Origin: Levilactobacillus mulengensis
GTDB lineage: Bacteria > Bacillota > Bacilli > Lactobacillales > Lactobacillaceae
DNA length: 64,000 nt
Direction: 5' to 3'
NCBI RefSeq assembly: GCF_003946045.1
Contig: NZ_RHNW01000007.1
Coordinates: forward strand, 62,001 to 126,000
The notes beneath the pieces are model-generated. The model was not told where the DNA came from, made no database searches, and saw nothing but the letters and a program-made list of their open reading frames with translations. The translations under genes and the position numbers were made by a program. Shown here piece by piece: positions 24,253-61,133 of this stretch (positions are counted from its first letter, which is position 1; every line of letters begins with the position of its first letter).

Positions 24253-24717
24253 CACAGCGTCTCAAGCCAGCAACCCGTTGGTAGAAACAAAACCAGAAAA
24301 CAATCAGAAACAAATGACTACCACAGTACAATCAGAGTCACTGTATCAGCCGCAGGGGCGGGGAAAATGGGTTCAGCCGTGGGATTTCCTGAGGGAACCT
24401 CAGGAAATGGTGACTTTGAGACGCGCCTTTGGCGGCTCAGAGCAAGTCCCGAGACCGCCCTTTGGCTCGGGACGTCCTCCCCACAGCGTTTCAAATCAAC
24501 ACCCCACTGGAGAAACTAAACCAGAAAACGACCAGAAACAAATAACCACCGCAGTCCAATCAGAGCTGCCGTGTCAGCCGCAGGGGCGCCAGAAATGGGC
24601 TCAGCCGTGGGATTTCCTGAGAGAACCTCAGGAAATGGTGACTTTGAGACGCGCCCTTGGCGGCTCAGAGCAAGTCCCGAGACCGCCCTTTGGCTCGGGG
24701 CGTCCTCCCCACAGCGT
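24253..24717 (+). repeat. Tandem duplication of a 228-229 bp intergenic unit
   Basis: Unit 1 (24253-24481) and unit 2 (24482-24709) are nearly the same, each starting with CACAGCGT; a third CACAGCGT begins at 24710. Each unit has a weakly structured first half (AACCAGAAAAC, ACAATCAGA) and the hairpins of the structured element in the second half. The last outer arm exists only after unit 2. Confidence 0.85.
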
Positions 24718-24748
24718 CACGGCCCATTTCTGGCGCCCCGGAGGCGGC
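24343..24748 (+). repeat. Structured intergenic element A1/A2 (multibranched, two tandem copies)
   Basis: Copy A2 (24571-24748): an outer perfect 18-bp stem, GGGGCGCCAGAAATGGGC (24583-24600) with 24722-24739; hairpin P2 ATTTCCTGAG/CTCAGGAAAT (24612-24636); P3 CTTTGAG/CTCAGAG (24642-24670); P4 CCCGAG/CTCGGG (24676-24699). Conserved linkers CAGCCGTGGGA and CCCCACAGCGT. Copy A1 (24343-24490) has the left outer arm and P2-P4 but lacks the right outer arm. It ends about 60 nt before the glycerophosphodiesterase gene on the same strand, so it may be in its leader. It resembles elements elsewhere in this window; not recognised. Confidence 0.75.
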
Positions 24749-24810
24749 AACCAAAACCAATTTAACAGAATCACCTACATAATATTTGTTATTGAGAGGA
24801 GTTGAGGACT

Positions 24811-26604
24811 GTGCAGGCATGGCAGTTCTGGCGAGAATCGACCCGCCATTTTTTCCAACACTGGGGCAGTTACGTCACCCTGGTCTTTATCACCAACTTG
24901 GTCATTAGTTACTTAGCGGTGCCGGCCTTTACCTGGCTGACCGCGGCGCTGTTGAAATGGCAGCACGTCCCTTACGTGTCCTACACCAACATCGCTGCCA
25001 TCACGTTGCAGCATCCCCTGGCCATCATCGGCCTTCTACTGATTCTGTTGGCGGTGGTCACGCTGATCTACTGGCAATTCGCCTTCCTCCTACTGGGAAT
25101 CACCAACATTCGAACCGGGCGACCAGACTCCACACGGGCGCTACTGGGCGACACCGTCCGCAGCATTGCCGGCGCCTCCCCTAGCACATTTCTCTTCTTT
25201 ATTGGGTACTTCATCGTCATTATCCCGTTTGGCAGCGAGCTGTTTACCACACCACTGCTCAACAAGGCCAAAATTCCGGCGTTTATCATTAGTTACTTAA
25301 TGGAAAATCCCCTGTGGACGGTCCTGTTGGGCATCTTCTACGTCGGTGCGGCCTACCTGGGGATTCGGTTGATTGCCGTGTTGCCCCTGATGATGATCGA
25401 CCACTACCACAGCCGCGAGGCCATTCGCCTCAGCTGGCACCAGACGCGCCGAAACTTTTGGAACTACTTTAGCAAAATTATTGTGACCCTGGCCCTGGTC
25501 AGTGCCGCCGTCTTTGTCATCTATGCCGCGCTTTACATCGGACAAGTCCTCTTCGACAAGACCAGCTTCGGCTTGGTTGCGGCCACCGTAAACCTCTTTT
25601 TGATGGAAGTCATTACGGAATTTATCGTCTGCTACGCTACCGTGCTGTTCATGATGGTCATCCTCAGCAGTCACGAGGCCCATCGCCGGACGCCGCTGTC
25701 CCTGTTCAGTTTCCGCGAACCAGCGAAGACTAAGTTTCGGACCCGGCTGTTGATCACGAGTGGTCTGGTCGTCATCAGTGCCGCTCTGGTTGGGTTTAAC
25801 CTGGTCTATCTAAACGGCCTCGCCATGAGCAAGCCGCTGACGATTGCCCACCGAGGCGTCGATAACGGCAACGGCGTGCAGAACACGATTCCCGCCATGG
25901 TCAAGACCAGCAAGGAGCGGCCCGACTACGTGGAAATGGACATCCGTATGACCAAGGACCATCAGTTTGTGGTCATGCACGACGCCAACCTGAAGGCGCT
26001 CGCCAACATTAAGAAATCTGTGTCTAAGCTGACATTGAAGCAACTGACTCAGATCACGGTCACGGAAAATGGCTATCAGGCAAAGATTCCCAGCTTCAAT
26101 CACTACCTGAACACGGCCATTGCCCACCACCAGAAACTGCTGATTGAAATCAAGACGGGTGGGGCCGACACCAAAGACTTGCCCGAACGCTTCTACCGGC
26201 AATTTGGGGCACGCATCATGGCAAATCATGAGCAGGTGCACACACTGAGTTACAAAATTATGAACCGACTGAAAAAAGAGCACCCGCAGCTATTTGTCAG
26301 CTACATTATGCCCTACAACCTGACGTTCCCGCAGACCCGGGCCAACGCCTACACCATGGAATCGACGACCCTGAACGATACCTTTATTGACCAGGCCGCT
26401 CGTGAACACAAGAAGGTTTACGCTTGGGATATTGACACCATCACCAATTTGGACCAGATGATGTTCATGGGCGTCAACGGCGTCATCACCAATAACCTGT
26501 CGCTGATCCAACAGGAAATCAAGGACAACACGGATCATCCGAGCTACGCCAACTTACTTTTGACGTTTATGAATGATTTGTCGTTGGAGACGCAGACGCA
26601 ATAG
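24811..26604 (+). CDS. Membrane glycerophosphodiester phosphodiesterase (YqiK/GPDPase_memb + GDPD type)
   Basis: 597 residues. The first ~330 form a membrane domain with about eight helices; the last ~255 are a GDPD domain: IAHRGVDNGNGVQNT (about 344-358), YVEMDIRMTKDHQFVVMHD with the metal ligands Glu and Asp and the catalytic His, then LLIEIKTGG and AWDIDT. It cleaves glycerophosphodiesters, possibly teichoic-acid-related or phospholipid-derived glycerophosphoryl groups, at the outer face. A TTG at 24802 is open, but GAGAGGAG is too close; it fits the GTG at 24811. The A1/A2 element lies directly upstream. Confidence 0.9.
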   Translation: MQAWQFWRESTRHFFQHWGSYVTLVFITNLVISYLAVPAFTWLTAALLKWQHVPYVSYTNIAAITLQHPLAIIGLLLILLAVVTLIYWQFAFLLLGITNIRTGRPDSTRALLGDTVRSIAGASPSTFLFFIGYFIVIIPFGSELFTTPLLNKAKIPAFIISYLMENPLWTVLLGIFYVGAAYLGIRLIAVLPLMMIDHYHSREAIRLSWHQTRRNFWNYFSKIIVTLALVSAAVFVIYAALYIGQVLFDKTSFGLVAATVNLFLMEVITEFIVCYATVLFMMVILSSHEAHRRTPLSLFSFREPAKTKFRTRLLITSGLVVISAALVGFNLVYLNGLAMSKPLTIAHRGVDNGNGVQNTIPAMVKTSKERPDYVEMDIRMTKDHQFVVMHDANLKALANIKKSVSKLTLKQLTQITVTENGYQAKIPSFNHYLNTAIAHHQKLLIEIKTGGADTKDLPERFYRQFGARIMANHEQVHTLSYKIMNRLKKEHPQLFVSYIMPYNLTFPQTRANAYTMESTTLNDTFIDQAAREHKKVYAWDIDTITNLDQMMFMGVNGVITNNLSLIQQEIKDNTDHPSYANLLLTFMNDLSLETQTQ

Positions 26605-26654
26605 ACTGAACGCTAAAAACACCTAGTAACCGGGAATTTCCCTGACTACTGCAA

Positions 26655-26697
26655 CCAAAAATGCCATCCCATTGATAGTCGGGATGGCATTTTTTGA
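26655..26697. terminator. Bidirectional terminator between convergent genes
   Basis: AAAAATGCCATCCC (26657-26670) pairs perfectly with GGGATGGCATTTTT; T runs follow on both strands. It serves the glycerophosphodiesterase gene and the DUF1836 gene. Confidence 0.9.
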
Positions 26698-27222
26698 TTA
26701 TTTCTTTTCAATTTTTCGTAAAGGTCGTTTGATGAGATGTAGCAGCTTTTCCGATTGCAAGCGCGCCACGACCGCGTCAACGGCGACCTGCATGAGTTTT
26801 TCGTTCAAGTCCTTGGCTGCTGGTTGGACCTGGTCCTCACCTAAATGGTGGAGCCGGTCTTCCAGGCTGTCAATGAAGTTGTCGTAGGCCTGTTTGGGGT
26901 AATCGCCCGCCGTAATCTGGTCGATTCCCGAGCGGACCGTATCCGTTTGGAACATGGGCTTCAGGAGACTGATCATTAAAATATCGGTCAGCTGCATGGT
27001 CTGATACTTCTTCTTGACGGGGGCCAAAATCACGTTGTGTTTCACGTAATTATTGATCATCGCCGGGGTAATCGTGTCGACACCCAAGGGGCCCAAAACA
27101 TCATTGATCAGCGCCGTTACCTGGTCCATATAGAGGTCAAACTTGGGTAAATCGTCCCACCGGGGTAATTTAACCCCGTGCATCTGGTGTTCCCACCGCG
27201 TATATTGATTGAAATCAGCCAT
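26698..27222 (-). CDS. DUF1836 protein, putative HTH regulator
   Basis: 174 residues matching my memory of DUF1836 proteins (YkrK/YxeR-type), with LPRWDDLPKFDLYMDQV, then ITPAMINNYVKHNVI and TDILMISLLKPMF. The layout resembles MerR-type HTH proteins: helix-turn-helix first, with the TPAMINNYVK segment as a likely recognition helix. The C-terminus is basic. No ligand or target is known. It is a single gene. Confidence 0.8.
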   Translation of the reverse strand: MADFNQYTRWEHQMHGVKLPRWDDLPKFDLYMDQVTALINDVLGPLGVDTITPAMINNYVKHNVILAPVKKKYQTMQLTDILMISLLKPMFQTDTVRSGIDQITAGDYPKQAYDNFIDSLEDRLHHLGEDQVQPAAKDLNEKLMQVAVDAVVARLQSEKLLHLIKRPLRKIEKK

Positions 27223-27311
27223 GTCTTTTCCCTACCCTTCCGTTTCTAGTTCTGATTATAACATATAATCTAGTCTTAGTGACTAGCTAAGGTCTAAAAA
27301 CGGCAATTCAT

Positions 27312-29657
27312 CTAGCGCCACCGAATCTTGCTGAGAATCCGGTGACCCAGTCCGTCCTGGACCAAGATAAACACCGGAATCACACTAATCATCAAGGGTA
27401 GATAAATCAGCGCTAGTTGCCAATTCAACAGGCTGACCAACGAGAAAATCGGACCAAAGAAGATGAAGATGACCGCAAACAAACCCGCCATCAACACGAC
27501 CAACCCGACCTTGAACCGGTTCAGCGGCCGTGCGACCATGACCAGAGCATTGAGGCTAATCAACCCCGTGATCAGCACGCTCAACGTGGAGGTCGTCGCA
27601 AACGTCAGGTGGAATTGCGTGCCAATCGCCATGATGACCAGGATGTAGCCGACCACGCAGATAGCTGCCGGCGCCGCAATTTCCATAACCTGTTTCATAA
27701 AGCGACCGGCAATCCGCGCGTAGTTGGGCTGCAGGGCCAGGAAGAACGTGGGAATCCCCACCATCAATGAGGAAATAGGCGTCAGCTGAATGGGTTCAAA
27801 TGGATAGCTGCGACTCATGAAGATAAAGATCAGCGTGAGCGCAACCGAGTACATAGTTTTAATCAGAAATAGCGACGCCACCCGTTCGATGTTGTTGATG
27901 ACCCGGCGGCCTTCGTTTAAGACGTTGATCATGGCGTCAAAGTTTGAGTTGACCAGGACAAAGTCGGCCAAGCTCTTGGTGGCTTCGCTCCCAGAGGCCA
28001 TGGCAATACTACAGTCTGCCTGACGCAGCGCCAACAGGTCATTGACCCCGTCACCGGTCATGGCAACCGTGTGCCCAGCTTCCTGGTAGGCCTTGATCAG
28101 CTGTTCCTTTTGTTGCGGCGTGACCCGACCAAATACGTTATAGTCGGCCACGAGTTGCGCGTAGTCTGGGTTGGCGCCCACCTGGCTCATATCGACCAGC
28201 TGTTGGGCCCCAGCGATACCGGCCCGGCCAGCGATACTGGCCACCGTCACGGGATTGTCCCCGGAAATGACCTTCAAGGCCACGTCCTGATTGGCAAAGA
28301 AGCCGAACGTATCCTTGGCACGTGGCCGGAGCTCATCGGTAATTAAAATTAGCCCGATGGTCCGAGGATTCGTTGGCTTGGGCGTCGTAAGCTGTTCCGC
28401 TTCCGCCAGCAACAGGACCCGGTAGCCCGCGGCCGCCAGCGTTTGAATGCGTTGCTGGACGTCGCTGGGCACCGTGTCAAAAATAAATTCCGGTGCGCCC
28501 ATGAGCGTCGCGTGGCCACCGATGACCGCCCCACTCCATTTGCGCCCGGAGGAGAACGGTAAGACATCCTGCGCCGCAACTTCTGGTGAGCCGTACGCCT
28601 GCTGGACCGCCTGCGCCGTTTCGTTATCGTCACCGGTGGCCGCCACTAGCTGAGCCAGTCGCGTCTGCAGATCTGCCGCTGAGACATCAGCCAACGGTTC
28701 CACCCGGTCGAGTTGTAGCTGACCGTTGGTGATGGTCCCGGTCTTGTCCAAACACAGCACGTCGACTCGGGCCAACGCTTCGATGGCGGGTAATTCCCGC
28801 ACCAACACGTTGTGACGCCCCAGGGTGAAGGCGCCGGCCGCGAGCGCTACCGAGGTCAGTAAGACCAAGCCCTCCGGAATCATGCCGACCATTGAGGCCA
28901 CGGTTCCCAGAATGGCACGGTTCTGGCTCTGTCCCCGCAACATGGCGGATACGAATAAGGCCGCCCCCAAAGGGATAATGGCAAACGTCAATACTTTAAT
29001 AATGCGATTAATAATGATGAGTAGCTGGCTGGCACTCCGGCGCTTTTGCTTGGCCGAGTGCGCCAGTTGTTTCACAAAGCTGCCGTGGCCGACCGTGGTG
29101 GCCTGCACCATGGCCCGCCCCCCGAGGAGGACGCTGCCAGAAATCAGGGAATCCCCCGTCCCTTTCAGAATTGGCGTGGATTCCCCGGTAATCTGGGATT
29201 CATCGACTTCCAGTCCGGCGGTATCCCGAATCAGGCCATCGACAGGAATCTGGTCCCCGCGGTGTAACTCGAGCAGGTCGTCACTCACGATGTCATCTTG
29301 GTGTCGCGCCGTCAGCTGACCGTCCCGCAGTACGTCAATTGTACCTTCGGACAGGAGCGCCAGCTTGTCGACCTGCCGTTTGGACCGAATTTCTTGGAAA
29401 ATACCAATCCCTGTGTTGACCACGACGACCCCCAAGAAGAGCAAGTTTTTATAGCTACCGGTGACCAAAACCAAGGCCCCCAGCAGGACATTGATTAAAT
29501 TAAAGAGGGTTAATAGATTATCCCGAAAGATTTGTTTCACACTTCGGGTCAGCGGGGGTAAGGGGTCATTCTGCAGACCGGCAGCCACCCGCTGCGCAAC
29601 TTCATCCGCCGTTAGTCCTTGGTCTAACGGCGTTTCATAACGTTCTGTTGTGGTCAT
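27312..29657 (-). CDS. CtpE-like P-type cation-transporting ATPase
   Basis: 781 residues with all P-type hallmarks: ITGESTPILKG in the A domain, GMIPEGLVLLTS in the membrane helix that binds the ion, CLDKTGTITNG with the phosphorylated Asp (about 303), and TGDGVNDLLALRQAD (about 534). The start LPPLTRSVKQIFRDN and the PEGL motif resemble mycobacterial CtpE, implicated in Ca2+ uptake; calcium is therefore the best guess. Six to ten membrane helices; no heavy-metal-binding domain. It starts with ATG at 29657 behind GGGAGG. Structured element A4 lies 40 nt upstream on the same strand. Confidence 0.88.
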   Translation of the reverse strand: MTTTERYETPLDQGLTADEVAQRVAAGLQNDPLPPLTRSVKQIFRDNLLTLFNLINVLLGALVLVTGSYKNLLFLGVVVVNTGIGIFQEIRSKRQVDKLALLSEGTIDVLRDGQLTARHQDDIVSDDLLELHRGDQIPVDGLIRDTAGLEVDESQITGESTPILKGTGDSLISGSVLLGGRAMVQATTVGHGSFVKQLAHSAKQKRRSASQLLIIINRIIKVLTFAIIPLGAALFVSAMLRGQSQNRAILGTVASMVGMIPEGLVLLTSVALAAGAFTLGRHNVLVRELPAIEALARVDVLCLDKTGTITNGQLQLDRVEPLADVSAADLQTRLAQLVAATGDDNETAQAVQQAYGSPEVAAQDVLPFSSGRKWSGAVIGGHATLMGAPEFIFDTVPSDVQQRIQTLAAAGYRVLLLAEAEQLTTPKPTNPRTIGLILITDELRPRAKDTFGFFANQDVALKVISGDNPVTVASIAGRAGIAGAQQLVDMSQVGANPDYAQLVADYNVFGRVTPQQKEQLIKAYQEAGHTVAMTGDGVNDLLALRQADCSIAMASGSEATKSLADFVLVNSNFDAMINVLNEGRRVINNIERVASLFLIKTMYSVALTLIFIFMSRSYPFEPIQLTPISSLMVGIPTFFLALQPNYARIAGRFMKQVMEIAAPAAICVVGYILVIMAIGTQFHLTFATTSTLSVLITGLISLNALVMVARPLNRFKVGLVVLMAGLFAVIFIFFGPIFSLVSLLNWQLALIYLPLMISVIPVFILVQDGLGHRILSKIRWR

Positions 29658-29696
29658 TTCCCCGCAACCTCCCTTTCTTTGGGTTACTCGTTAATT

Positions 29697-29890
29697 TGCG
29701 TCTCCAGGTCAGTGAAAATAGACCGTGACGCTGTGGGCGCACGTCTGGAGCCATAGACCGGTCTCCAGACTTATTTTGAGCCGAAGTCCACGTCTCAAAA
29801 ATATCAGTTTCCTAAGTGGCCAAGCCACTAAGGAAACTCCCACGGCTGAGTCTATTTTCACCGACCTTCCGACTCACAGACGTTTAACCC
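29697..29890 (-). repeat. Structured intergenic element A4 upstream of the P-type ATPase
   Basis: Read on the minus strand: outer stem GGTCGGTGAAAATAGAC (29850-29866) with GTCTATTTTCACTGACC (29707-29723), one mismatch; linker CTCAGCCGTGGGA; P2, a 14-bp stem with one mismatch (29806-29838); P3 TTTTGAG/CTCAAAA (29774-29800); P4 GTCTGGAG/CTCCAGAC (29743-29770); then CCCACAGCGTCACGG. It lies between the ATPase start codon and the next gene. Possible leader RNA of the ATPase. Confidence 0.75.
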
Positions 29891-30153
29891 ACGCTGTTTT
29901 TATTTGCGCCTACTATACTGGTGCCAACGGCCTTTGAAATCGTATTTCAGACGCTAAGTCGAAATCAACCGGCCCTAGGACAGCTGCGTCTACTGCTGAG
30001 ACAACAGTCAACAACCTATAAGAACACACCTTCATTGTACTAGAAAATGGGTTCATCCGGCGCTTAATTCGTTCAGTTCTACGCAATCTTTTAGAGAAAC
30101 GCAAGCATTTCTAATGGGAACGATAGTAACCTTTTGAGCCGGGGAAGACTACA
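29891..30153. other. Intergenic stretch
   Basis: About 260 nt with no ribosome-bound frame and no strong hairpin. A short string AGAAAATGGGTTCA at about 30040 resembles the outer-arm core of the structured elements but has no other part of them. Confidence 0.35.
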
Positions 30154-30375
30154 ATGAAATTGGTAGCATTTATTCACGCATTTTTACTTAAATTCTTCAA
30201 AGGGAGTAATATTTTGAATCACAAATCATCAGCGGTTATTCTATTTATTCTCTATATCATCCTGCTTGGCTGCATGTTAGCCCATCAAGATATGCTGGCC
30301 ATGTGGCTCATGACGTTTGGGATGTTATTCGAGGCTAGCATCAACCTCTTTGACGTTTTTCATCGCCGTCAGTAA
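30154..30375 (+). CDS. Small membrane protein of unknown function
   Basis: Up to 73 residues with two hydrophobic segments (about 28-42 and 46-60) and a C-terminal HRRQ. The ATG at 30154 has only a weak GGGGAAG upstream. A TTG at codon 21 (30214) has AAAGGGAG at proper spacing and would give 53 residues; the shorter form may be the real one. No family recognised. Confidence 0.55.
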   Translation: MKLVAFIHAFLLKFFKGSNILNHKSSAVILFILYIILLGCMLAHQDMLAMWLMTFGMLFEASINLFDVFHRRQ

Positions 30376-30486
30376 GCGTTGTCATTTAGCGCTAGATAGC
30401 CTAAAATGGAGGGTATACGCGTGCCTGGCCCAGCGCCTCGCACCAACAATGACTGACGGTATCTGCCGTCAAGGAGGAACTATTTT

Positions 30487-31338
30487 ATGACACCACCCAC
30501 CAAGATTACGGATACACTCAAACTGGCCGATGGCAACCGCATGCCGGTCATGGGGTTTGGGACCTACAAAATCGGCGATCAAGAAACCATGAATAAATCG
30601 ATCGACGCGGCCTGGAACGCTGGCTACCGCATGTTTGACACGGCCATGCTTTACCGCAACGAGGACATTCTCGGTCCCACCCTGCACCAACTCGGCTTGC
30701 CTCGTGAAGGCTTCTTCCTGACCAGCAAAGTCGCCGAAGTCGTTCAGGGTTACGACCGGACGATGAAGGCTGTGGAAGGCTCACTCAAACGTTTACAGAC
30801 TGATTACTTGGACCTCTTACTGGTTCACTGGCCCGTTCGTGAACACTTCTTTGACACCTGGAAGGCCATGGAACAATTGAAAGCTGATGGCAAGGTCAAG
30901 TCCATCGGGGTCTCCAATTACACCATTGCCCACCTGGAACTGCTCGCCACGCAGGCCAAGGAAATGCCCGTCGTTAACCAGGTGGAATACCATCCTTACC
31001 TGAACCAACAGGCGCTGTTCGACTACGACCAAGAAAAGAAGATCGTCACGGAAGCTTGGAGTCCTTTAGGCCGGCGCGTGGTTTTAGATAACCCGATGCT
31101 GACTAAGATGGCTAAGCACCATAACAAATCCGTTGCTCAAATCGTTTTGCGGTGGGAACTTCAACACGAATTGGTGACGATTCCCAAGTCCACCCATCCC
31201 GACCGCATCAAGGAAAACGCCGATATCTTTGACTTCGCCTTGGACGTTGATGAGATGACCATGATCGACATTCTGAATAAGAATGAACGGACGGGGAATG
31301 AACCCGAAATCGTCTACGAAACCGCCAAGCAGTACTAG
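30487..31338 (+). CDS. Aldo/keto reductase
   Basis: 283 residues, a (beta/alpha)8 NADPH-dependent carbonyl reductase. The catalytic tetrad can be placed: Asp in MFDTAMLYRNE, Tyr in the same block, Lys in LTSKVAEV and His in LLVHWPV. GVSNYTIAHLE and the cofactor-binding IPKSTHPDRIKEN also fit the AKR5 group, which reduces 2,5-diketogluconate-like or aldehyde substrates. AAGGAGGAAC precedes the ATG. A 6-bp hairpin, TGACGG/CCGTCA (30454-30471), directly abuts the ribosome site and could affect its access. The stop codon lies inside a long inverted repeat that brackets element B1. Confidence 0.93.
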   Translation: MTPPTKITDTLKLADGNRMPVMGFGTYKIGDQETMNKSIDAAWNAGYRMFDTAMLYRNEDILGPTLHQLGLPREGFFLTSKVAEVVQGYDRTMKAVEGSLKRLQTDYLDLLLVHWPVREHFFDTWKAMEQLKADGKVKSIGVSNYTIAHLELLATQAKEMPVVNQVEYHPYLNQQALFDYDQEKKIVTEAWSPLGRRVVLDNPMLTKMAKHHNKSVAQIVLRWELQHELVTIPKSTHPDRIKENADIFDFALDVDEMTMIDILNKNERTGNEPEIVYETAKQY

Positions 31339-31636
31339 GGTTTAAACTGTGCGGGTACTGCGCCTCCGGGCTGGTGAAAACTGGGCCGTGTTGCGTCCGT
31401 TCCCGACGACGAGCTCAAGGCGCCCTGCTGTGGGGCCGGTTACAGCCTGAGAAGCGGGCTTCCACCTCAACTTTGAGCCTGAGGTGCGGTCTCAAAGGTT
31501 GTCCCATGCTCTAAACTGAGAAAATCGCTCAGTTAAGACCATCGACACAGCTGGTCGCCTTGGCTCGTCTCTGGTCACTCCCACAACTGACCCATTTTCA
31601 CCAACCCTGCGGCTCATACGCGTTTAAACCTAGTAC
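31332..31636. repeat. Long inverted repeat bracketing element B1
   Basis: GTACTAGGGTTTAAAC (31332-31347) and GTTTAAACCTAGTAC (31622-31636) pair with one bulged G. Pairing continues outward: AAGCA/CGCTT with one mismatch. The left arm contains the aldo/keto reductase stop codon, so the coding sequence itself is part of the repeat. Confidence 0.75.
31355..31630 (-). repeat. Structured intergenic element B1 (extended form)
   Basis: Minus strand: outer arm GGTTGGTGAAAATGGG pairs with CAGTTTTCACCAGCC (31368-31607); linker CAGTTGTGGGA; a long internal stem GACGAGC-CAAGGCG / CGCCTTGAGCTCGTC (31408-31422 with 31556-31569); P2 AACTGAG/CTCAGTT (31514-31534); P3 CTTTGAG/CTCAAAG (31471-31497); a degraded P4 (about 31444-31460); CCCCACAGCAGGGC; and 3' end CCCGGAGGCGCA. 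It follows the reductase gene in opposite orientation. Confidence 0.7.
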
Positions 31637-31800
31637 CGCTTCGGTGGCGACTTAATCATGTAAACTAAAAAATGCAATCGGCGTTCTCATTAATTAATTG
31701 AGGACGTTGATTGCATTTTCTTTTACGCATATTTAGACTGACTAATTGTGCCCAATTTTCAGGTAAAAAGCATTAAGCACAAACTGGCAGAATTAGTTCT

Positions 31801-31979
31801 GTATCAGCCGTGAGGGCGAGAAAAATGGGTCCAGCCGGGGATTCTGCGAGTATTCCACTCGCAGAATGGCGACTTTGAGACGTGTTCCTCGGCTCAAAGC
31901 GTGCTGGAAGACCGCTTTCCAGGCTTCCGGCGTCCTCCCCCAGCGTTCCGATCCCATTTTTCTCGCCCGGTAAGGCGCC
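31801..31979 (+). repeat. Structured intergenic element A3
   Basis: Plus strand: GTATCAGCCG start; perfect 16-bp outer stem GGGCGAGAAAAATGGG (31814-31829) with 31953-31968; linker CCAGCCGGGGA; P2 ATTCTGCGAGT/ACTCGCAGAAT (31841-31867, 11 bp perfect); P3 CTTTGAG/CTCAAAG (31873-31899); P4 CTGGAAG/CTTCCGG (31904-31930); CCTCCCCCAGCGT. It lies between convergent reductase and permease genes, just after the permease stop, in the opposite orientation. Confidence 0.75.
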
Positions 31980-31988
31980 ATCAAAGCA

Positions 31989-33482
31989 CTAGTTCTCCAC
32001 TTGTTTGTGTTTACGGACTTGGTACCAGATGACCCCCATTAAGCCGAACAGGATTGGCCCAACCAGCATCCAAATCGTGCTTTGGACGTCGCCGTTTTCC
32101 AAGATGGGTTGGAGCAGCGTGAAGACGTTGGCCCCCAAGACCACGAGGAAGACGACCCAACTGATGACAGTCGTCCAGGCCGGTGACTTGTAAACTTCGA
32201 ACGGCTTGACGATGTCGCGGTTACGCTTGAATTTCGGAAAGGCGTAGACCAGGAACAGGTATGGCAACGTCATGGACACGTTCGCCATCAGCGTCAAAAT
32301 GTTGTAGAAGGCTGAGGCATCACTCGAGGCAAATGACGCGACCAGAATGATCACGATGACGACGGCACATTGCAGCTTCATCGCATAACTGGGCATATCG
32401 TTGTCGTTTAATTTAGTAAACTTCTTTGGCCACATGGACTTTGGCGTCCCCATGATCAGCGTCTTCAGCGGTGAGTAAGTCAACGTGAAGAAGGCTCCGG
32501 AGTACGCTAAGAACATACCCAGGCCGGTGTAACGGGCAAACCACAAGCCAATCGTGGTACTCGTGGCGGCGCTCAGACCCAGGGCTTCACCCAAGGTATC
32601 CCCGAGATTCCGCATCATGACGTAACTGATGTTCCCCATGTTCGTGGTTGGGTCGGCCAGAACCGTTTGCCAGTTCGTGCTAATCCCCCAGCAAAGAATC
32701 CCAATCGCATAACCCAACGTGATCACGACGGCTGAGATGACAATGGCCTTGGGGAACGTCTTTTCGGGGTTCTTGGTCTTATCAACCATGCCCCCTAAGA
32801 CTTCCAGACCCCCATAGGCGAAGATGGCAAATACGGCGAAACTCATGATTCCCATCGGTTGTTGGTAACCAGGATGTGGGGAATGTAAGAAGGTGCTCAG
32901 CGGCTGAGCAAACTGACCATGCTGCAAGGCCAAAACGACACCGGAAACGACCAGCAGGATGGCATTTAAGCTCATGACGGCCAAGCCACCGAGACTGGTG
33001 ATCCGCACGATGCCCTTGACCCCTTTGATGGAGACCCAGGTCACCAGCACCATCCACAGGCAGGACAGAATCCCGATGACCTGCGTGGCGTTTAAGCCAG
33101 CGAAGGCGAAGTTCTGCGTTTGATCACGCCCGAAGAAGGTCGTGGTAAAGGGAATCCAAACCTTCGCGGAGGTGGAAACCAGCCAGATGATGTAGGAGGC
33201 GAACCACATGAAGGTCCCGATGAAGGCGAACTCTGAGTTCACACTGCGGTCCAGCCACTGGTACATCCCACTCCCTTCGTCGGATTTGATGGCGGCCCCA
33301 TATTCTGCCATCATTAAAGCAAATGGAATAAAGAACAGGATTGCCGCTGCTAAGTAGAATAGAATCGACGAGTAACCCATTAAGAAATAGGCCACCGTAC
33401 TGTTGGCAAAGCCGAAGACGGTCGTAAAGATCATCATGACTAAGGCCATTAAGGTGATTTTAGAGTTATTATTATCAGCCAT
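31989..33482 (-). CDS. yjeM: APC-superfamily amino-acid permease, YjeM type
   Basis: 497 residues, about 12-14 membrane segments. Long stretches recall Escherichia coli YjeM (ALVMMIFTTVFGFANS, IGTFMWFASYIIWLVSTSAK, YSPLKTLIMGTPKSMWP), a transporter of the glutamate/GABA-antiporter branch whose substrate I cannot name. The upstream part of the frame is not translated: GGGGAGAC precedes the ATG at 33482. An IS605-type element ends roughly 120-200 bp upstream, with tnpB pointing at this gene. Confidence 0.9.
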   Translation of the reverse strand: MADNNNSKITLMALVMMIFTTVFGFANSTVAYFLMGYSSILFYLAAAILFFIPFALMMAEYGAAIKSDEGSGMYQWLDRSVNSEFAFIGTFMWFASYIIWLVSTSAKVWIPFTTTFFGRDQTQNFAFAGLNATQVIGILSCLWMVLVTWVSIKGVKGIVRITSLGGLAVMSLNAILLVVSGVVLALQHGQFAQPLSTFLHSPHPGYQQPMGIMSFAVFAIFAYGGLEVLGGMVDKTKNPEKTFPKAIVISAVVITLGYAIGILCWGISTNWQTVLADPTTNMGNISYVMMRNLGDTLGEALGLSAATSTTIGLWFARYTGLGMFLAYSGAFFTLTYSPLKTLIMGTPKSMWPKKFTKLNDNDMPSYAMKLQCAVVIVIILVASFASSDASAFYNILTLMANVSMTLPYLFLVYAFPKFKRNRDIVKPFEVYKSPAWTTVISWVVFLVVLGANVFTLLQPILENGDVQSTIWMLVGPILFGLMGVIWYQVRKHKQVEN

Positions 33483-33659
33483 TATTGTCTCCCCAATTAT
33501 TTTAGGCTGCCCAATTGTAGGCGCTTTATTTATTGTCAACCACGCCCGTTTAAAAACGGACGCTTGTAGGAACCATACCCCATGGCATGACGACCACAAT
33601 TTACTTAGATACAGCGTTAGCCTACGAATAGGACTTATCCGCTAATTACCAAAGCCTTT

Positions 33660-33690
33660 TAGGTCCGCAGGTTGCCAGACGGACTTGTTT
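33660..33690 (-). ncRNA. Candidate right-end hairpin / 3' part of the TnpB reRNA (omegaRNA) scaffold
   Basis: GTCCG (33663-33667) and CGGAC (33680-33684) form a hairpin starting 10 nt after the tnpB stop. In IS605 elements the guide RNA of TnpB is transcribed through the tnpB 3' end to the right end, and the guide is the flanking DNA beyond it. Here that would be about 33600-33655. Confidence 0.4.
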
Positions 33691-33693
33691 CTC

Positions 33694-34947: not shown

Positions 34948-35042
34948 GAACTGCCACCTCCTTTTGCTTGATAACAGCATATCATATGAGTATACTGTAT
35001 CCATAGTAAGCTGTCTTATAATAATATTTATGGAGGGTGCGT

Positions 35043-35462
35043 ATGAGTGAGAATGCTGAAGGGATTATTCATGAACGTGGTTATGTTTACAGCTTCCATT
35101 TTCACTTGGCCTGGGTCACCAAGTATCGGCATGAAGCATTTACAACACCAAAGTTAGTCGCTGAGATGACGGATATTCTAACAAAGATAGCCCGGCTAAA
35201 CGAAGTGACCATTGAACAGATGGAGGTAATGCCGGACCATATTCACTTACTACTAAGCTTTAAGCCTAAGTATGCACCAACCAATGTTGTCAAAGCCTTC
35301 AAGGGCGGTTCGGCTCGCTTGTTCTTTGAACTACATCCAGAGATAAAGGCTCAGAAGTTTTGGGGTGGACATCTCTGGTCGCCTAGTTACTTTATGAGCA
35401 CCCTGGGTGACATGAGCAGGACAACCGTGGAAAACTATATTGCTAATCAGCGAAAAGCATAA
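35043..35462 (+). CDS. tnpA: TnpA, Y1 (HUH) transposase of the IS200/IS605 element
   Basis: 139 residues: HUH pair in MPDHIHLLLS (His66 and His68) and the nucleophile Tyr in VENYIANQ (Tyr132), with FWGGHLWSPSYF typical of IS200/IS605 TnpA. It cuts and joins single-stranded ends of the element during replication. The ATG at 35043 follows GGAGGG; a GTG two codons upstream is less likely. Confidence 0.95.
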   Translation: MSENAEGIIHERGYVYSFHFHLAWVTKYRHEAFTTPKLVAEMTDILTKIARLNEVTIEQMEVMPDHIHLLLSFKPKYAPTNVVKAFKGGSARLFFELHPEIKAQKFWGGHLWSPSYFMSTLGDMSRTTVENYIANQRKA

Positions 35463-49480: not shown

Positions 49481-49521
49481 GCTTTACATTCTAAATCTTT
49501 GCCTCATGTAGTAATTACGAC

Positions 49522-49846: not shown

Positions 49847-49853
49847 CTTTTCT

Positions 49854-50660: not shown

Positions 50661-50669
50661 AAGTTAAAT

Positions 50670-53002: not shown

Positions 53003-53005
53003 CAT

Positions 53006-53044
53006 CAAAAAAGCCATCGCTCGTTTTGAGTGATGGCTTCTTTG
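53006..53044. terminator. Terminator between CNNM and lysR genes
   Basis: AAGCCATCGCTC pairs with GAGTGATGGCTT with T runs on both sides; serves both convergent genes. Confidence 0.85.
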
Positions 53045-53045
53045 G

Positions 53046-53915: not shown

Positions 53916-53934
53916 TTCATAGCACCACCTTGTT

Positions 53935-53997
53935 ATAAGATTCACTTATCATCCTTCACAATTATCCGCTATTTCCGTTTGGATGTAAACGCTTCTA
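53935..53997. promoter_or_regulatory. LysR-type operator and cre-like site between divergent genes
   Basis: ATAAG-N5-CTTAT (53935-53949) is a typical LysR-regulator dyad. Downstream, TGTAAACGCTTCTA (53984-53997) resembles a cre site, with the core AAACGCTT intact and two deviations further on. Confidence 0.5.
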
Positions 53998-54034
53998 CAA
54001 TGAGTTTGTAAGCAATTTAAGGGAGGCAACGAAG

Positions 54035-55015: not shown

Positions 55016-55028
55016 GGAGGAAATACTC

Positions 55029-55871: not shown

Positions 55872-55879
55872 GCGCAAAT

Positions 55880-55922
55880 AAGCGCCCCCGTTGCCAACTT
55901 GGCAGCAGGGACGCTTTTTGTT
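55880..55922 (+). terminator. Terminator of the oxidoreductase operon
   Basis: AGCGCCCCCGTTGCCA and TGGCAGCAGGGACGCT pair with a few mismatches and are followed by TTTTG. Confidence 0.8.
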
Positions 55923-55967
55923 TACCACTATGTAGCCCAACAGAAATCAGGTCTGCTCAACGCTGAT

Positions 55968-56147
55968 TTACCGCAACCGCACTAACCCCTTAACAAAGTA
56001 AAACACGCCGCCCCAAAACAGCAGGAAGCAGACCCACCAGAAAACACTGGTTAGCCGAAATGGCAGGATATTCCAAATCATTAAAAACATAATCAGGAGT
56101 CCGCTCCAAAAATCCAATGAATGCACAAAACGTCGATTAAATTGCAT
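55968..56147 (-). CDS. Small membrane protein (tandem paralog 2)
   Basis: 59 residues: MQFNRRFVHSLDFWSG, then two hydrophobic segments (about 13-27 and 31-50). Same plan as the 56156 product, 8 nt upstream. The ATG at 56147 has TAGGAGGAG before it; the frame upstream is not used. Confidence 0.7.
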   Translation of the reverse strand: MQFNRRFVHSLDFWSGLLIMFLMIWNILPFRLTSVFWWVCFLLFWGGVFYFVKGLVRLR

Positions 56148-56155
56148 GGCTCCTC

Positions 56156-56353
56156 CTACTTTTTCTGCCGACTGGGGGTGACAAACATCCCCCGCGACAA
56201 CTCGTACACGCCGACAATGACTAAAATACCCGAGATAAGCCACTCAAATACGCTATTCCCGGTCAAGGGTGAGAACCCCCACCCACTCAAAACTAGGGCC
56301 ACGATGCCACCCCAAAAATTCGATGAACGATAAAATTCTTTATTAAACGTCAC
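56156..56353 (-). CDS. Small membrane protein (tandem paralog 1)
   Basis: 65 residues from GTG at 56353 (VTFNKEFYRSSNFWGG), chosen since it aligns with the paralog start and has AAGGCGG upstream; a GTG at 56371 would add six residues. Two hydrophobic segments (about 15-28 and 34-51). Function unknown. Confidence 0.65.
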   Translation of the reverse strand: MTFNKEFYRSSNFWGGIVALVLSGWGFSPLTGNSVFEWLISGILVIVGVYELSRGMFVTPSRQKK

Positions 56354-56588
56354 GCTGATTCCGCCTTCCACTGACTGTTACCTCTTATTCTAGCACTAAT
56401 GAACAGGGGATTAACTAGCAATCATTGACACACTGGCCAGTTAGGCCGAAGATGAACGTATGTCGTTATTTCTGGCACGGATTTTTAGGTGATTGTGCGC
56501 TTCCGGTCATCACTAGCAAACAATGCCGACTCACATCCGCTATTTTATCGGCCTGATCAGGCCTGTTTTCTGAAAGGAAGCTAATCGC

Positions 56589-57518
56589 GTGGATATTGCG
56601 CAACTCTCGAACCAAATCATCCTCATGTTCATCCTCATGGCGGTCGGCCTGCTGACGAACAAACTCGGCTTCATGCACGGGCAAACGGCGACCGACCTCA
56701 CCAACATCCTGCTCTACATCGTGTCACCCTGCCTCATCGTAAACGCCTTTGAACAGCGGTTCTCCGCTAGCCGCCTGCAGGCCCTCGCCATGGTCATGTT
56801 GGGCATTCTCCTGACGTACGCCGTCATGGTCCTGGTGACCAACCTAGTCTTCAAACGAATCGCGGACACCAACCTACAGCGCATCATGCGTTTCGGGGCC
56901 GTGTACTCCAACGCTGGCTTCATGGGCGTGCCACTGGCCAGCGCCCTCTTTGGTAGCACCGGTGTCTTCTTCGCCGTAGCCTCACTAGCGGGCTTCAACC
57001 TGTTCTGTTGGACGCACGGGATTGCCCTCTTCACCCCGAAACAGCCGGGAGACCGCCACGTCAACTGGCGCCAGATTCTACTCAATCCCAATATCATTGC
57101 GATTGTTGTGGGGCTGATCATTTTCGTCAGTGCCGTCCACCTGCCAAGCCTGCTCAACCAAACCATCACCGACGTCAGCTCCATCAACACGCCACTATCG
57201 ATGATTGTGATCGGGAACAGCCTGGCCGCGGTTAAACTCAACCGGCAAACGCTGGACCCCCGCCTCTGGCGGCCGCTGCTGTTACGCAATTTATTATTTC
57301 CAATTATCAACATTTTAATTCTGCGGGCATTTGGCGTCAGTGGAATTCCACTCTACACGACCGTGCTGATGGCCGCCTGCCCGGTTGCCGGTAACGTGGT
57401 CCTGTTTACGCTCAAGGCCCACGGCGATACCACGCCGGCCGTTACCCTGATGAGCCTCTCAACGATTTTATGCATGGGCACGATTCCCTTAGTTTTCGCC
57501 CTCAGTAATTTCCTTTAA
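56589..57518 (+). CDS. AEC-family (auxin efflux carrier-like) transporter
   Basis: 309 residues, ten membrane segments in two five-helix repeats; IVSPCLIVNAFEQRFS and SAVHLPSLLNQTITDVSSINTPLSMIVIGNSL are the discontinuous helix regions typical of AEC proteins, which carry organic anions such as malate in lactic acid bacteria. It starts with GTG at 56589 after GAAAGGAAG. It stands alone and has no adjacent malolactic genes, so the substrate is open. Confidence 0.9.
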   Translation: MDIAQLSNQIILMFILMAVGLLTNKLGFMHGQTATDLTNILLYIVSPCLIVNAFEQRFSASRLQALAMVMLGILLTYAVMVLVTNLVFKRIADTNLQRIMRFGAVYSNAGFMGVPLASALFGSTGVFFAVASLAGFNLFCWTHGIALFTPKQPGDRHVNWRQILLNPNIIAIVVGLIIFVSAVHLPSLLNQTITDVSSINTPLSMIVIGNSLAAVKLNRQTLDPRLWRPLLLRNLLFPIINILILRAFGVSGIPLYTTVLMAACPVAGNVVLFTLKAHGDTTPAVTLMSLSTILCMGTIPLVFALSNFL

Positions 57519-57565
57519 CGAAAAAAATGGTGCCTGACCAACTTGGTCGGACACCATTTTATTTA
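57519..57565. terminator. Bidirectional terminator between AEC and MFS genes
   Basis: AAATGGTGCCTGACCA pairs with TGGTCGGACACCATTT around AACT, with A and T runs outside. Confidence 0.9.
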
Positions 57566-57573
57566 GCATTTGT

Positions 57574-59007
57574 TTAACGTTCTGCCTTTGGTAAGCGTAA
57601 GGCAATCAGGAAACCAATCAAGGCCAGGATAAACGTGAAGTAGAATCCATAGTGGGCCCCGTTCACAAAGGCACCGGCGGCGTTGGTCGTCCCCTTAGCC
57701 AGGTAAGCGGCTTGGCCGATACCCAGTAAGCTGGTAGCAATCGCGGTACCAATGGCCCCAACGACCTGTTCAAAGGTGTTCATGATGGCACTCCCATCGG
57801 CGGCGATTGGACCAGTCAGAGCGTTTAACCCGTGTGTCTGGGATGGTGACATCGCTAACGGTGCCCCAACCATCAACGTCACGTGAGCCAGGATAACGTA
57901 CCAAATGGCTGAATGCGTTGAAGTTAAGGCTAACATCAAGGCACCAATCATCAAAATAATAAAGCCGATTCTGACGGGAATTCGTGCACCGATATGGTCA
58001 TACAGCCGCCCAGAAAGAGCCGAAACGATTGCGTTGACGATACCACCTGGGAACATAATGATCCCCGTCAACGCAACCGGTACCAACAGACCCTTTTGAA
58101 TATACATAGGTAATAGATACATTGCGGAAAGAATGATACCGAAGTCAATCATCACCAGGATGGTCCCAATACGAAAACCAGGGATAGCAAATGCCCGCAA
58201 ATTCAAAATGGGTTTTTCCACCGTTAGTTGACGATGCGTATACCACGCTAAGACAACAATCCCCAGAACCAAGGCACCAATCACAATTCCTGAGCCCCAG
58301 CCGCGATCACTCGCAAAACTAACCCCCAAAACCAAGCTCCCAAAACCAATCGTCGACAGGATAATTGAGAGAAAATCTACTTTGGGGCGGGTGACTTCAG
58401 CAATATTTTTCAGTGAGGTCACTGCAAAAATAAAGGCAATCACCAGTAGTGGCACAAATAACCAGAAAATCCATCGCCAGGAAGCGACACCCAAAATCAA
58501 ACCAGCCAGGGTCGGTCCTAGTGCTGGTGCGAACATGATAACCAGTCCAACCATTCCCATGGCTGCCCCAAGTTTGTAAGGTGGGAAGATTTGCATCGCC
58601 ACCGTAAACATCAGGGGCAGGATTAACCCGGTCGCAATCCCTTGGATCATCCGCCCAAATAACAAGACGCCAAATCCGGGTGCCGAGGCAGAAATAACCG
58701 CCCCGACGATGAAATCAATCAAAGCAAACAGGATAACCTGCCGCGTCGTAAACCATTTCGTAATAATACTGGAGAGTGGCAGAACCACCCCAACCATTAA
58801 CATATATCCGGTCACCAGCCATTGAATCGTGGCCGTTGACACGTTTAACTGCGTCATCAACTGGGGTAAGGCAATGTTCAAAGATGTTTCAGAAAACATC
58901 CCCACAAATCCCCCAATAAGCATCCCCATAATTGCAAGCATGGGGTGGGCAACCTGTACCCGCGCATGCTTCGCCATTTCTGGTTGGTTATTTTGAACTG
59001 AATCCAT
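57574..59007 (-). CDS. MFS exporter, DHA2 (EmrB/QacA-like) family
   Basis: 477 residues, about 14 membrane segments; FSETSLNIALPQLMTQL, QWLVTGYMLM, GRMIQGIATGLILPLMF and APALGPTLAG are the DHA2 motifs. Related to the 9991-11388 exporter in this window but not its closest copy. It probably exports drugs or bile-like compounds by proton antiport. Purine run AAGAGAG lies 12 nt before the ATG at 59007. No regulator is adjacent. Confidence 0.9.
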   Translation of the reverse strand: MDSVQNNQPEMAKHARVQVAHPMLAIMGMLIGGFVGMFSETSLNIALPQLMTQLNVSTATIQWLVTGYMLMVGVVLPLSSIITKWFTTRQVILFALIDFIVGAVISASAPGFGVLLFGRMIQGIATGLILPLMFTVAMQIFPPYKLGAAMGMVGLVIMFAPALGPTLAGLILGVASWRWIFWLFVPLLVIAFIFAVTSLKNIAEVTRPKVDFLSIILSTIGFGSLVLGVSFASDRGWGSGIVIGALVLGIVVLAWYTHRQLTVEKPILNLRAFAIPGFRIGTILVMIDFGIILSAMYLLPMYIQKGLLVPVALTGIIMFPGGIVNAIVSALSGRLYDHIGARIPVRIGFIILMIGALMLALTSTHSAIWYVILAHVTLMVGAPLAMSPSQTHGLNALTGPIAADGSAIMNTFEQVVGAIGTAIATSLLGIGQAAYLAKGTTNAAGAFVNGAHYGFYFTFILALIGFLIALRLPKAER

Positions 59008-59141
59008 TTGTTTTCACACTCTCTTTCACGAATAGTCACAATGGATTACTCTACCAGAAAAAAAGCGTCTTCGTAAGTAAAACTTTTAATATTTTTTTTA
59101 ATTCTCATTTTTTGCGGTGACAATTTTCCGTAACAAGTAAC

Positions 59142-60656
59142 CTATTTTCCCTTAATGGCCGCAATCTGTTCCCGGAGTTCCTTCAACCGTTGGGTATCGA
59201 GCTCCGGGGCCATCATCACCTGGTCGTATTCAAATTGGAGCCGTGGTAGATCACTAGCGGGGACGCCCTTAGCCGTCTTGGCCGGGTCCGTTAGCTGATG
59301 ATCTGCCATGACCAAGGTCCGTGTCGCCACGTGTTGGCGGAATTCCTGGTCATGCGCCACGAACAAGACGGTGCCGGGATAGCCAATCAGATAGTCTTCC
59401 AGTGCCCGTAAGGCAGGTAAGTCTAAATAGTTCGTGGGTTCGTCCAGAATCAACAGGTTGCTGGCACTGACCAGGATGGCTAACAGTTGCAGCTTAACCT
59501 GTTCGCCCCCACTGAGGTCGCCAACTAACCGGTCGTAAAACCGGGCCGTTAACCCAAAGGCGCCCATCACCTGACGCGTCCGGTTGCCATCAAGCGCCGT
59601 CGCGGCCGCCATCACCTGCCACACGGTCTTCGTCGCGGGCAGCTCTGTCATGTCCTGATGAAAGTACCCGACCCGCGCGCTAGGCGCCAAACGGGTGTTG
59701 GGCGCGTGAGCTAAAATGGCCTCAATCAATGTCGACTTGCCACAGCCATTAGGGCCGGCCAATGCAACCCGTTCGCCCGGCGTCACACTGAAACGAGCAT
59801 GCTGCAGCAGGTCATGCTTCCCACGCTTGAGGTGCAGGTCTTCCACCGCAATCAGGCGTTTACCGGTCACGGGGGGTAAATCCGTGGCCACCAGCTTCAA
59901 AGCCGCCGTCTCGTGCGGTTTGACCGTCGTCGTTTGCCGTTCAGCTCGGTCGCGTAAGGCGCGGGCCCCACGCTCCATCTTGCCGGCGTTCTGTTCACGA
60001 ACCGATTGCGAGTTTGCCCGTTCCGCAGCGCTCATACTCCGACTGCCCTTACGGATTCGCGCGGCCTTTTCATGCCGCGCCTGTACGGCCAGCCGGAGCT
60101 TACGCCGCTCGTTCTGTTCATTTTGATACTGGCTCCGGATATTCTCCCGCCGCTGTTCCCGGTACGTTTCAAACTTGGTGAAGCTCCCATTATATTGGGT
60201 GTACACGTGATCCTCGAGGGACCAAATCTGTGTTGCCACGGCCGTCAAGAGTTCCCGGTCATGGGAAATGATGATCAGCAAGCCAGAGAAATGTTGTAGC
60301 TGACCAATTAACCAGCTTTGGTGTTCGTCATCCAGGTTGGCGGATGGTTCATCTAAAATCAACAATTCTGGCCGTTGCGCCATCGCCCGACGAATCCGGT
60401 CCAGCATGCTTTGCCCACCAGAACGACCCGCGTTCGGGGCAATCTGCGGCACTAAAATAGCGGTATCCGTGACGGTCCGTTGACCGGTGAAGTCCGTATC
60501 CGTGCCACAAATAATGTGGGCCAGCGTACTCTTTCCAGTCCCGTTGGCGCCAATAATCCCAACCCGGTCACCGGATTGAGCGGTTAAATGTTCCGCGGTA
60601 AATAACGTTTCTCCCGCAACTGTTTTCGTTAAATTATTTAAGGTAAGTTGTGTCAA
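59142..60656 (-). CDS. ABC-F family ATP-binding protein (Vga/Lsa/Msr-like)
   Basis: 504 residues with two ATPase domains and no membrane part. NBD1: GANGTGKST (about 36-44) and a shortened signature RSGGQSMLDR; Walker B LLILDEPSANLDD. Linker (about 185-245) is Arg-rich and long, as in antibiotic-resistance ABC-F proteins that reach the ribosomal exit site. NBD2: GPNGCGKST, LSGGEQVKLQL, LLILDEPTNYLDL. Such proteins protect ribosomes from lincosamides, pleuromutilins or streptogramins, or act in translation. The start is TTG at 60656 after AAAAGGGGGACG. A terminator-like leader precedes it (60696-60846). Confidence 0.88.
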   Translation of the reverse strand: MTQLTLNNLTKTVAGETLFTAEHLTAQSGDRVGIIGANGTGKSTLAHIICGTDTDFTGQRTVTDTAILVPQIAPNAGRSGGQSMLDRIRRAMAQRPELLILDEPSANLDDEHQSWLIGQLQHFSGLLIIISHDRELLTAVATQIWSLEDHVYTQYNGSFTKFETYREQRRENIRSQYQNEQNERRKLRLAVQARHEKAARIRKGSRSMSAAERANSQSVREQNAGKMERGARALRDRAERQTTTVKPHETAALKLVATDLPPVTGKRLIAVEDLHLKRGKHDLLQHARFSVTPGERVALAGPNGCGKSTLIEAILAHAPNTRLAPSARVGYFHQDMTELPATKTVWQVMAAATALDGNRTRQVMGAFGLTARFYDRLVGDLSGGEQVKLQLLAILVSASNLLILDEPTNYLDLPALRALEDYLIGYPGTVLFVAHDQEFRQHVATRTLVMADHQLTDPAKTAKGVPASDLPRLQFEYDQVMMAPELDTQRLKELREQIAAIKGK

Positions 60657-60695
60657 AAAGTCGTCCCCCTTTTGAAAGCAGGGATTGCCGGTACA

Positions 60696-60846
60696 AAAAT
60701 AGTGGCCGCATTTCCCGTCCGGAAATGGCGCCCACTGGTTGCGTTTGGCAACTCAGTCAATGCACCATCAATCCCAATTGCAGGCCCACTCCACCCCTTG
60801 CAGGTGGTGAAGCTGACTGACATTTGTGGATTGATTAGTTGCGCAT
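60696..60846 (-). promoter_or_regulatory. Candidate attenuator leader of the ABC-F gene with tiny upstream ORF
   Basis: On the minus strand, CATTTCC and GGAAATG pair with an outer GGC/GCC (60704-60732), followed by CTATTTTTG: a terminator shape about 45 nt before the gene. Further upstream a three-codon frame, ATG CGC AAC TAA (60835-60846), follows CGAGGT. This layout recalls ribosome-stalling attenuation of resistance ABC-F genes. Confidence 0.45.
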
Positions 60847-60947
60847 CGGCTGAATACCTCGTTCTTTCTTAGATTACCAACAGAATAGCACAGGCCTTAT
60901 TTTTTGACAAGTGATTTTCTTTTGGCTTTGTTTACATTGCCGTTTCC

Positions 60948-61133
60948 GACGGCGAATTCAAAGTGCCCTGCTGTGGGGAACGGTCCCAGCCTTAGGAGCG
61001 GTCTGGGACCTCGCTTTTGAGCCAAAAAACGGTCTCAAAAGTCGTCCCGTGCTCTAGGCTGGAAAGCCCCCCCCAGCCAAGACCACCGACACAGCTGGTC
61101 ACCTTGATTCGCCTCTGGTCACTCAGACTAGCA
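60948..61133 (-). repeat. Structured intergenic element B2
   Basis: Minus strand: outer stem GGCGAAT-CAAGGTG with CACTTTGAATTCGCC (60951-60965 with 61100-61113); extra hairpin GACCA/TGGTC (61081-61100); P2 GGCTGG/CCAGCC (61057-61078); P3 TTTTGAG/CTCAAAA (61015-61040); P4 GTCCCAG/CTGGGAC (60973-61009); CCCCACAGCAGGGC. It is the same extended form as B1 with different stems. Located between the ABC-F leader and the nrdI promoter, about 290 nt from the ABC-F start. Confidence 0.72.

Follow-up and report, generated by a model that had tools for sequence, protein, structure and literature searches.

We analysed a family of dispersed, highly structured repeats in Levilactobacillus mulengensis, starting from the copies in a 64,000-nucleotide stretch of its genome (contig NZ_RHNW01000007.1, positions 62,001 to 126,000). 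This stretch is referred to below as the window (G000:C34:62001-126000, where G000 labels the window's own genome). The window contains four copies of type A, with a core of approximately 172 nt, and two of type B, with a core of approximately 252 nt. They were located with R1, a covariance model of type A built from 26 copies, and with a profile of type B. The copies, together with the two outer stem arms that enclose one of them, are as follows.

24349..24512, - strand: type A core, first copy of a tandem pair, without one side of the shell (R1, 136.8 bits; alignment, as L002)
24577..24746, - strand: type A core with full shell, second copy of the tandem pair (R1, 183.5 bits)
29699..29873, + strand: type A core (R1, 139.2 bits)
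31333..31347, + strand: left arm of the outer stem, locus-specific (sequence, list of open reading frames and flank alignment)
31362..31613, + strand: type B core with full shell (B profile, 277 bits; alignment A2)
31622..31635, + strand: right arm of the outer stem (sequence and flank alignment)
31807..31976, - strand: type A core with full shell (R1, 148.9 bits)
60939..61129, + strand: type B core without the standard shell (B profile, 147 bits; R1, 48.7 bits at 60943-61120)

Each of the four full-length A copies is matched by R1 with E < 1e-25. R1 also weakly matches both B copies, the one not given above at 31400-31576 (+) with 24.9 bits, and two further weak antisense matches in the window (32 and 21.3 bits) fall on copies already counted. 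A sequence-only reading of the window had described five stretches as one family of elements. All five contain what it described, including the quoted stem sequences, and the elements are indeed related through a shared outer shell, but they carry two interchangeable core types. Its first stretch, 24343-24748, had been taken as one element but consists of two tandem A copies (24349..24746) with a repeat period of approximately 230 bp, linker included. An apparent remnant of a third unit lies upstream of the pair, at 24252-24330. As the repeated unit includes the linker, the array probably grew by tandem duplication.

In a typical copy, one of two exchangeable branched cores, A or B, is surrounded by a shell and by an outer stem specific to the locus. 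On the modelled strand, termed R, the shell reads roughly GCC(TTACC or TCCG)GGCGGTGAAAATGGGCC and pairs with GGCTGAGCCCATTTTCACCGCCC(TCAC or CTGC)GGC. This stem is present in both consensus structures and forms terminal inverted repeats. Inside the shell, core A is a branched stem bearing three hairpins, while in core B the arm is longer and there are additional hairpins. Outside the shell there is another stem, which varies in sequence from locus to locus. At the B copy at 31362..31613, the left arm of this stem runs over the end of the upstream open reading frame (ORF) 30487-31338, including its stop codon (31336-31338). The right arm is complementary to the left with one base unpaired, and thus to the end of that ORF. 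Folds of ten copies with their flanks range from -105 to -176 kcal/mol, and matched A copies have a GC content of 49-66%. Unpaired core bases are conserved, and internal loops and bulges persist across aligned copies. Copies with damaged shells are omitted from the alignments, namely four from A1 (L002, L010, L021 and L029) and five from A2 (L047, L048, L049, L054 and L056).

The repeats are abundant. G000 has at least 150 A copies, since all 150 candidates that were scored, out of 1444, match R1 (weakest E 2.6e-16). Profile searches of 464 kb of this genome, comprising the window together with sections of contigs 23 and 31, gave 32 A and 58 B hits, fragments included. BLAST with one A copy and one B copy gave 43 and 58 matches, pieces included, with 40 candidates scored for each. 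By simple extrapolation, a genome would hold an estimated 300 copies (at the density of the window) to 600. R1 matches 33 of 35 Levilactobacillus genomes (G403 and G413 are without a match), and one of these, G418, has at least 80 element matches. The family is also more weakly represented in 21 of 121 Lactobacillaceae genomes, five of them Levilactobacillus, and in 8 of 40 genera, so that restriction to one genus was dropped. Scores outside the genus are low, at most 63 bits and without a decoy control. Twenty such matches, inspected by eye, are A-like (CTGGAACGC ... GCTGAG) or B-like branched hairpins with other stem sequences. An exact sequence pattern matched 4 genomes among 395 of the order, and all four are Levilactobacillus. 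The exact-pattern scan of genome contigs returned at least 108 stretches, of which six outside lactobacilli (L070, L085, L108, L134, L148 and L152) were set aside, untested, as chance.

The sequence-only reading had not recognised the family, and the window has no Rfam match at gathering score. A known Rfam RNA family was rejected on this ground. Rfam E-value scans of 24000-32200 of the window and of 20 loci gave matches only far below gathering scores. No description of the repeat family was found among the open-access papers listed, as judged by titles and excerpts. It appears to be an abundant and undescribed family in these chromosomes.

The claim that the stems carry compensating changes is borne out far beyond chance. 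We assembled 137 A copies from 100 of 102 named lactobacillus loci (L167 and L168 were left out) and compared the paired positions with shuffled alignments. Of 7406 pair cells, 94.7% are standard pairs, compared with 77.0% in shuffles. Both sides change at 45 of 55 pairs against 30.7 in shuffles, the covariation score is 0.459 against 0.145, and all four Watson-Crick types are seen at many pairs. None of 500 shuffles attained the observed value on any of five measures. Among 25 B copies, two-sided change is seen at 21 of 86 pairs (9.6 in shuffles) and the covariation score is 0.128 (0.069 in shuffles), neither value being reached in 500 shuffles. One of the five measures for B, the number of further pair types, is not above shuffles (37 against 38.7; 440 of 500).

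Covariation is usually read as strong evidence of a functional RNA. Under RNA constraint, G·T pairs are expected to be common and A·C mismatches rare, and the two were counted after pairs with majority G·T had been dropped (7 in RNase P, 1 in A and 3 in B). A tRNA control was too small (six tRNAs; 4 G·T and 0 A·C), and RNase P of 30 Lactobacillaceae was used in its place. RNase P has 142 G·T and 9 A·C, and 17 and 66 when the opposite strand is read. On the modelled strand of the repeats the corresponding counts are 22 and 18 for A, and 15 and 22 for B. A re-aligned sample of 40 A copies gave 30 G·T and 29 A·C, and the full set of 137 A copies, with two majority-G·T pairs left out, gave 59 and 127. 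The RNase P pattern is clear on neither strand of the elements. The sequence-only reading had left it open whether the fold was selected as RNA or as single-stranded DNA. Because the paired changes run from one Watson-Crick pair to another and, on the modelled strand, do not consistently favour G·T, the pairing resembles a DNA requirement more than an RNA one, and DNA is favoured.

Changes in copies that have stayed in place give a different picture from changes between copies. We compared orthologous copies in G000 with those in two neighbouring species, G418 and G406, excluding nine pairs below 85% identity (2 A and 7 B). One-sided changes at pairs comprise 74 G·T, 75 A·C and 43 others. Paired Watson-Crick changes number 0 in A and 24 in B, with five other double changes in B. 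Across the 137 A copies, paired changes climb steadily with divergence, from 0.6% to 33%. One-sided differences start at 1.7% (95-100% identity), reach 5.7% at 90-95%, stay at 6-7% from 90 down to 55% and stand at 8.9% below 55%. Each copy has approximately three mismatches among 53 pairs. The simplest reading is that mismatches gather in standing copies while pairing is kept in the lineages that are copied. Selection for the folded form, as proposed from the sequence alone, is thus best supported for lineages making new copies. It is less well supported for standing copies, in which changes are unpaired and G·T and A·C are equally frequent.

Comparison of the same sites between species, using hits of at least 50 bits, shows that the same hairpin shell can hold different cores. 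G000 copies were compared with the corresponding position in G418 or G406 in 73 cases: the core type is the same in 54 and different in 12, and in 7 there is no core. Six loci (212k, 252k, 211k, 293k, 180k and 297k) were aligned, and in all six the flanks are orthologous while one species carries A and another carries B. Conservation of the shell reaches closest to the core at 252k, 293k and 297k, while the left shell differs at 211k. At 88k in G418, a B core sits within the first part of an A core. We know of no bacterial repeat in which neighbouring species have different cores within one and the same hairpin shell. At C23:222489-222732, G406 is without a core yet keeps the outer stem and a short loop, as after loss of a core from its shell.

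The copies also show a polarity relative to stop codons. Counts of flanks and gene ends were made for hits of at least 90 bits, with ORFs called mechanically. Only five of 76 G000 copies lie inside a called ORF (at least 100 amino acids), and the copies are mostly intergenic. A stop codon on the same strand lies within 40 nt upstream of the 5' edge of R in 28 of 76 own copies and in 24 of 69 copies of relatives, some of which are orthologues of own copies. At the mirror position a stop codon is found in 1 of 76 and 0 of 69, and random intergenic controls give 4-6%. A cruder polarity test of 20 copies in G408 gave 10 upstream and 2 mirrored stop codons. Flank complementarity exceeds the 99th percentile of permuted flank pairs in 22 of 76 copies, and the best flank alignment extends into the ORF in 24 of 29 gene-end copies (no positional control). 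At two sites, 246k and 297k, G000 alone has copies, and the end of the adjacent gene is repeated there in inverted orientation. The following element at 246k apparently lost its left arm along with this. At C23 near 197290, the site is uninterrupted in G000 and G418, while in G406 a B core lies between CTTTTTTCTCAATT and CTTTTTTCAATT, 11-14 bp direct repeats at a T-tract. Inverted flank copies are therefore real in some cases and not general, and an inverted copy at every insertion was dropped as a model since it is absent from G408 copies and from the 197k site.

Taken together, these observations suggest that the repeat is a mobile DNA element, non-autonomous and present in many copies, which is akin to BOX and to miniature inverted-repeat transposable elements (MITEs) and has to fold as DNA when it propagates. 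We put the probability of this reading at about 0.6. A putative enzyme would recognise the folded single strand or a cruciform. If only copies that still pair were copied, paired changes would accumulate along copying lineages. Insertion may prefer positions immediately downstream of stop codons, in a fixed orientation. The hairpin's 3' end could sometimes fold back on insertion and be extended on the neighbouring gene end, leaving an inverted copy of it on the far side. Cores would be swapped between copies via recombination or insertion. A more specific version, which we consider less likely than not, is that the folded single-stranded DNA cores are cassettes of a family-wide mobile system. 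Such cassettes might enter beside stop codons with fixed polarity, extend their hairpin by copying the gene end and later be exchanged inside a standing shell, by a kind of enzyme not yet described.

Several observations count against the mobile DNA reading. First, no mobilising gene was found in searches that covered Y1 transposases (PF01797) and RVT_1, and no other transposase families or insertion sequence (IS) ends. PF01797 has 0 matches in the copy-rich G418, 5 in the element-free G403 and 5 in G000. RVT_1 has no match in G000 and has matches in 10 of 35 genus genomes, including G418 and G406. Split copies enclosing a gene number 0 in 1.65 Mb plus the window. A plasmid collection gave no match for A or B, and a phage collection none for B, the type searched there. 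Second, a clean target duplication was found in one case only, the other presence/absence sites being complex. Without the innermost 25 nt, flank complementarity exceeds the 99th percentile in only 4 of 76 copies, and it is present in 1 of 20 copies of the G408 family; the fold-back step is for these reasons not general. The cruder polarity test is reversed in G402, with 4 upstream and 10 mirrored of 20, where the flanks tested fall largely within its longer repeat. Third, with the two majority-G·T pairs kept, the 137 A copies have 263 G·T and 132 A·C. When the opposite strand is folded there is a mild G·T excess (A, 38 against 21; B, 42 against 11), and the consensus energy of both A and B is lower on that strand. 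In orthologous copies, paired sites changed in 3.6% (A) and 5.1% (B) of cases and unpaired columns in 6.3% and 13%. As paired sites thus change at approximately 0.4 to 0.6 times the rate of unpaired columns, some constraint on standing copies is possible.

Specific routes of mobilisation were also considered. The window contains one of the five Y1 transposases of G000, of the IS200 size class, at 35085-35450 (+) within ORF 35037-35462 (PF01797, 127.9 bits; G000:C34:97085-97450), and copy number gives no link between it and the repeats. Mobilisation by a Y1/IS200 transposase was rejected because Y1 presence does not track copy number; the PF01797 matches were counted together, RAYT and IS200 types alike. 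A resident reverse transcriptase was rejected as the agent of retrotransposition because G000 is without an RVT_1 match. A parent transposon with a gene inside a copy was likewise rejected in view of the 0 split candidates.

Three other explanations were weighed, and the repeat is a test case for separating selection on RNA, selection on DNA hairpins and template switching. In the first, the element is a structured RNA, most likely part of the upstream gene's 3' untranslated region or read from the opposite strand, which stabilises or processes transcripts and spreads through its usefulness there. The polarity after stop codons, the very stable folds and the strong covariation all speak for such an RNA, and the opposite strand adds its G·T excess and lower consensus energy. 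Gene-end copies rarely have a hairpin with T-tract in the 100 nt after the core (1 of 29, compared with 4 of 47 other copies and 116 of 327 control genes), as if the element replaced the terminator. The same counts do not support the idea that the element is an intrinsic terminator, and this reading was rejected. However, the modelled strand is unlike RNase P in having no consistent wobble preference, and recent one-sided changes are balanced between G·T and A·C. Copies occur in both orientations, 93 of 145 are without a same-strand stop codon within 40 nt upstream, and Rfam holds no match. We regard a structured RNA as unlikely.

In the second, the paired changes reflect a mutation bias in which template switching at replicating hairpins copies one arm into the other, producing both the compensating changes and the inverted flank copies without selection on the fold. 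This is a published mechanism, and its account in excerpt describes paired Watson-Crick changes and new perfect stems arising without selection (PMC8794818). It would fit the scarcity of wobble intermediates and the inverted gene-end copies. Yet A orthologues have 43 one-sided and no paired Watson-Crick changes, so mismatches are not quickly repaired. Copying of arms would also erase internal loops and bulges, which persist in the aligned copies. Template switching alone, moreover, leaves dispersal to hundreds of sites and the exchange of cores unexplained, and we consider it improbable.

The last, that the copies are DNA sites used by the host (for example by a nucleoid or topology protein, as for REP/BIME), spread by recombination and kept by host need, fits their mostly intergenic location, their presence in 33 of 35 genus genomes, their absence from the plasmid and phage collections searched and the conserved unpaired core bases, but it is improbable given that two genus genomes are without a match, mismatches accumulate at standing sites and core type is not always kept at a site.

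The mobile element reading invites comparison with known bacterial repeats. We know of no mobilising enzyme for BOX elements. As described in excerpts of the published accounts, BOX elements of Streptococcus pneumoniae and S. suis resemble the repeat in being composite and dispersed with stable predicted folds (PMC3049150). Those of S. suis further combine varied end modules around the same kind of inner module, with tandem inner units and clusters (PMC10969869). The likeness is by description only, and by the same partial accounts BOX differs in having tandem boxB units between boxA and boxC. The repeat has instead a locus-specific stem and shell around one of two branched cores, a core type that differs between species at a given site, and polarity relative to stop codons.

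The repeat also has general features of a MITE: it is short and non-coding, has many dispersed copies and carries terminal inverted repeats. Bacterial MITEs such as ERIC, Correia/NEMIS and RUP are similarly small, high-copy and mainly intergenic, with inverted ends and a stable stem-loop, according to the excerpts consulted (PMC2229807, PMC10969869), and the target duplication at one site of the repeat is a MITE-like trait. Unlike MITEs, the repeat has no parental IS or transposase in the Y1 and RVT_1 searches, has a branched core, covaries in Watson-Crick fashion over very diverged copies and holds differing interiors in the same standing shell. MITEs are described, in the passages available, as AT-rich (PMC3049150, PMC10969869), unlike the matched A copies.

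Repetitive extragenic palindromes (REP) likewise occur as hundreds of hairpins between genes, and their pairing as DNA is important to single-strand transposases. With their RAYT transposases, they serve here as a comparison system (PMC2817692). The repeat is unlike them in being much larger and multi-branched. Nor do Y1 transposases track copy number, G418 having none and the element-free G403 five. The Lac-1 stem-loop family of Lactobacillus johnsonii (model length 231, 34(6) members, marked G in the table excerpted) is likewise a repeated structured sequence in a lactobacillus, and was compared by description only (PMC2267715).

Several further sequences were observed in passing. Between the B copy and the A copy that follows it in the window, a strong palindrome followed by TTTTCTTTT at 31667-31723 has the look of an intrinsic terminator. 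In the Rfam E-value scan, this segment gave a weak match to a microRNA family, far below the gathering score. G408 (L281-L300) has 96 R1 matches in one genome to a family of approximately 150 nt. Its 40 best BLAST matches are 86-100% identical to one copy, and the family is probably the product of a recent burst. G402 (L301-L320) has a homogeneous family of approximately 540 bp with long imperfect inverted ends and the hairpin of the repeat in the middle, and part of its left side recurs beside copies in G421. Finally, G430 (L359 and L361) contains GC-rich relatives with nearly perfect outer stems, which fold at approximately -135 to -143 kcal/mol over approximately 235 nt.

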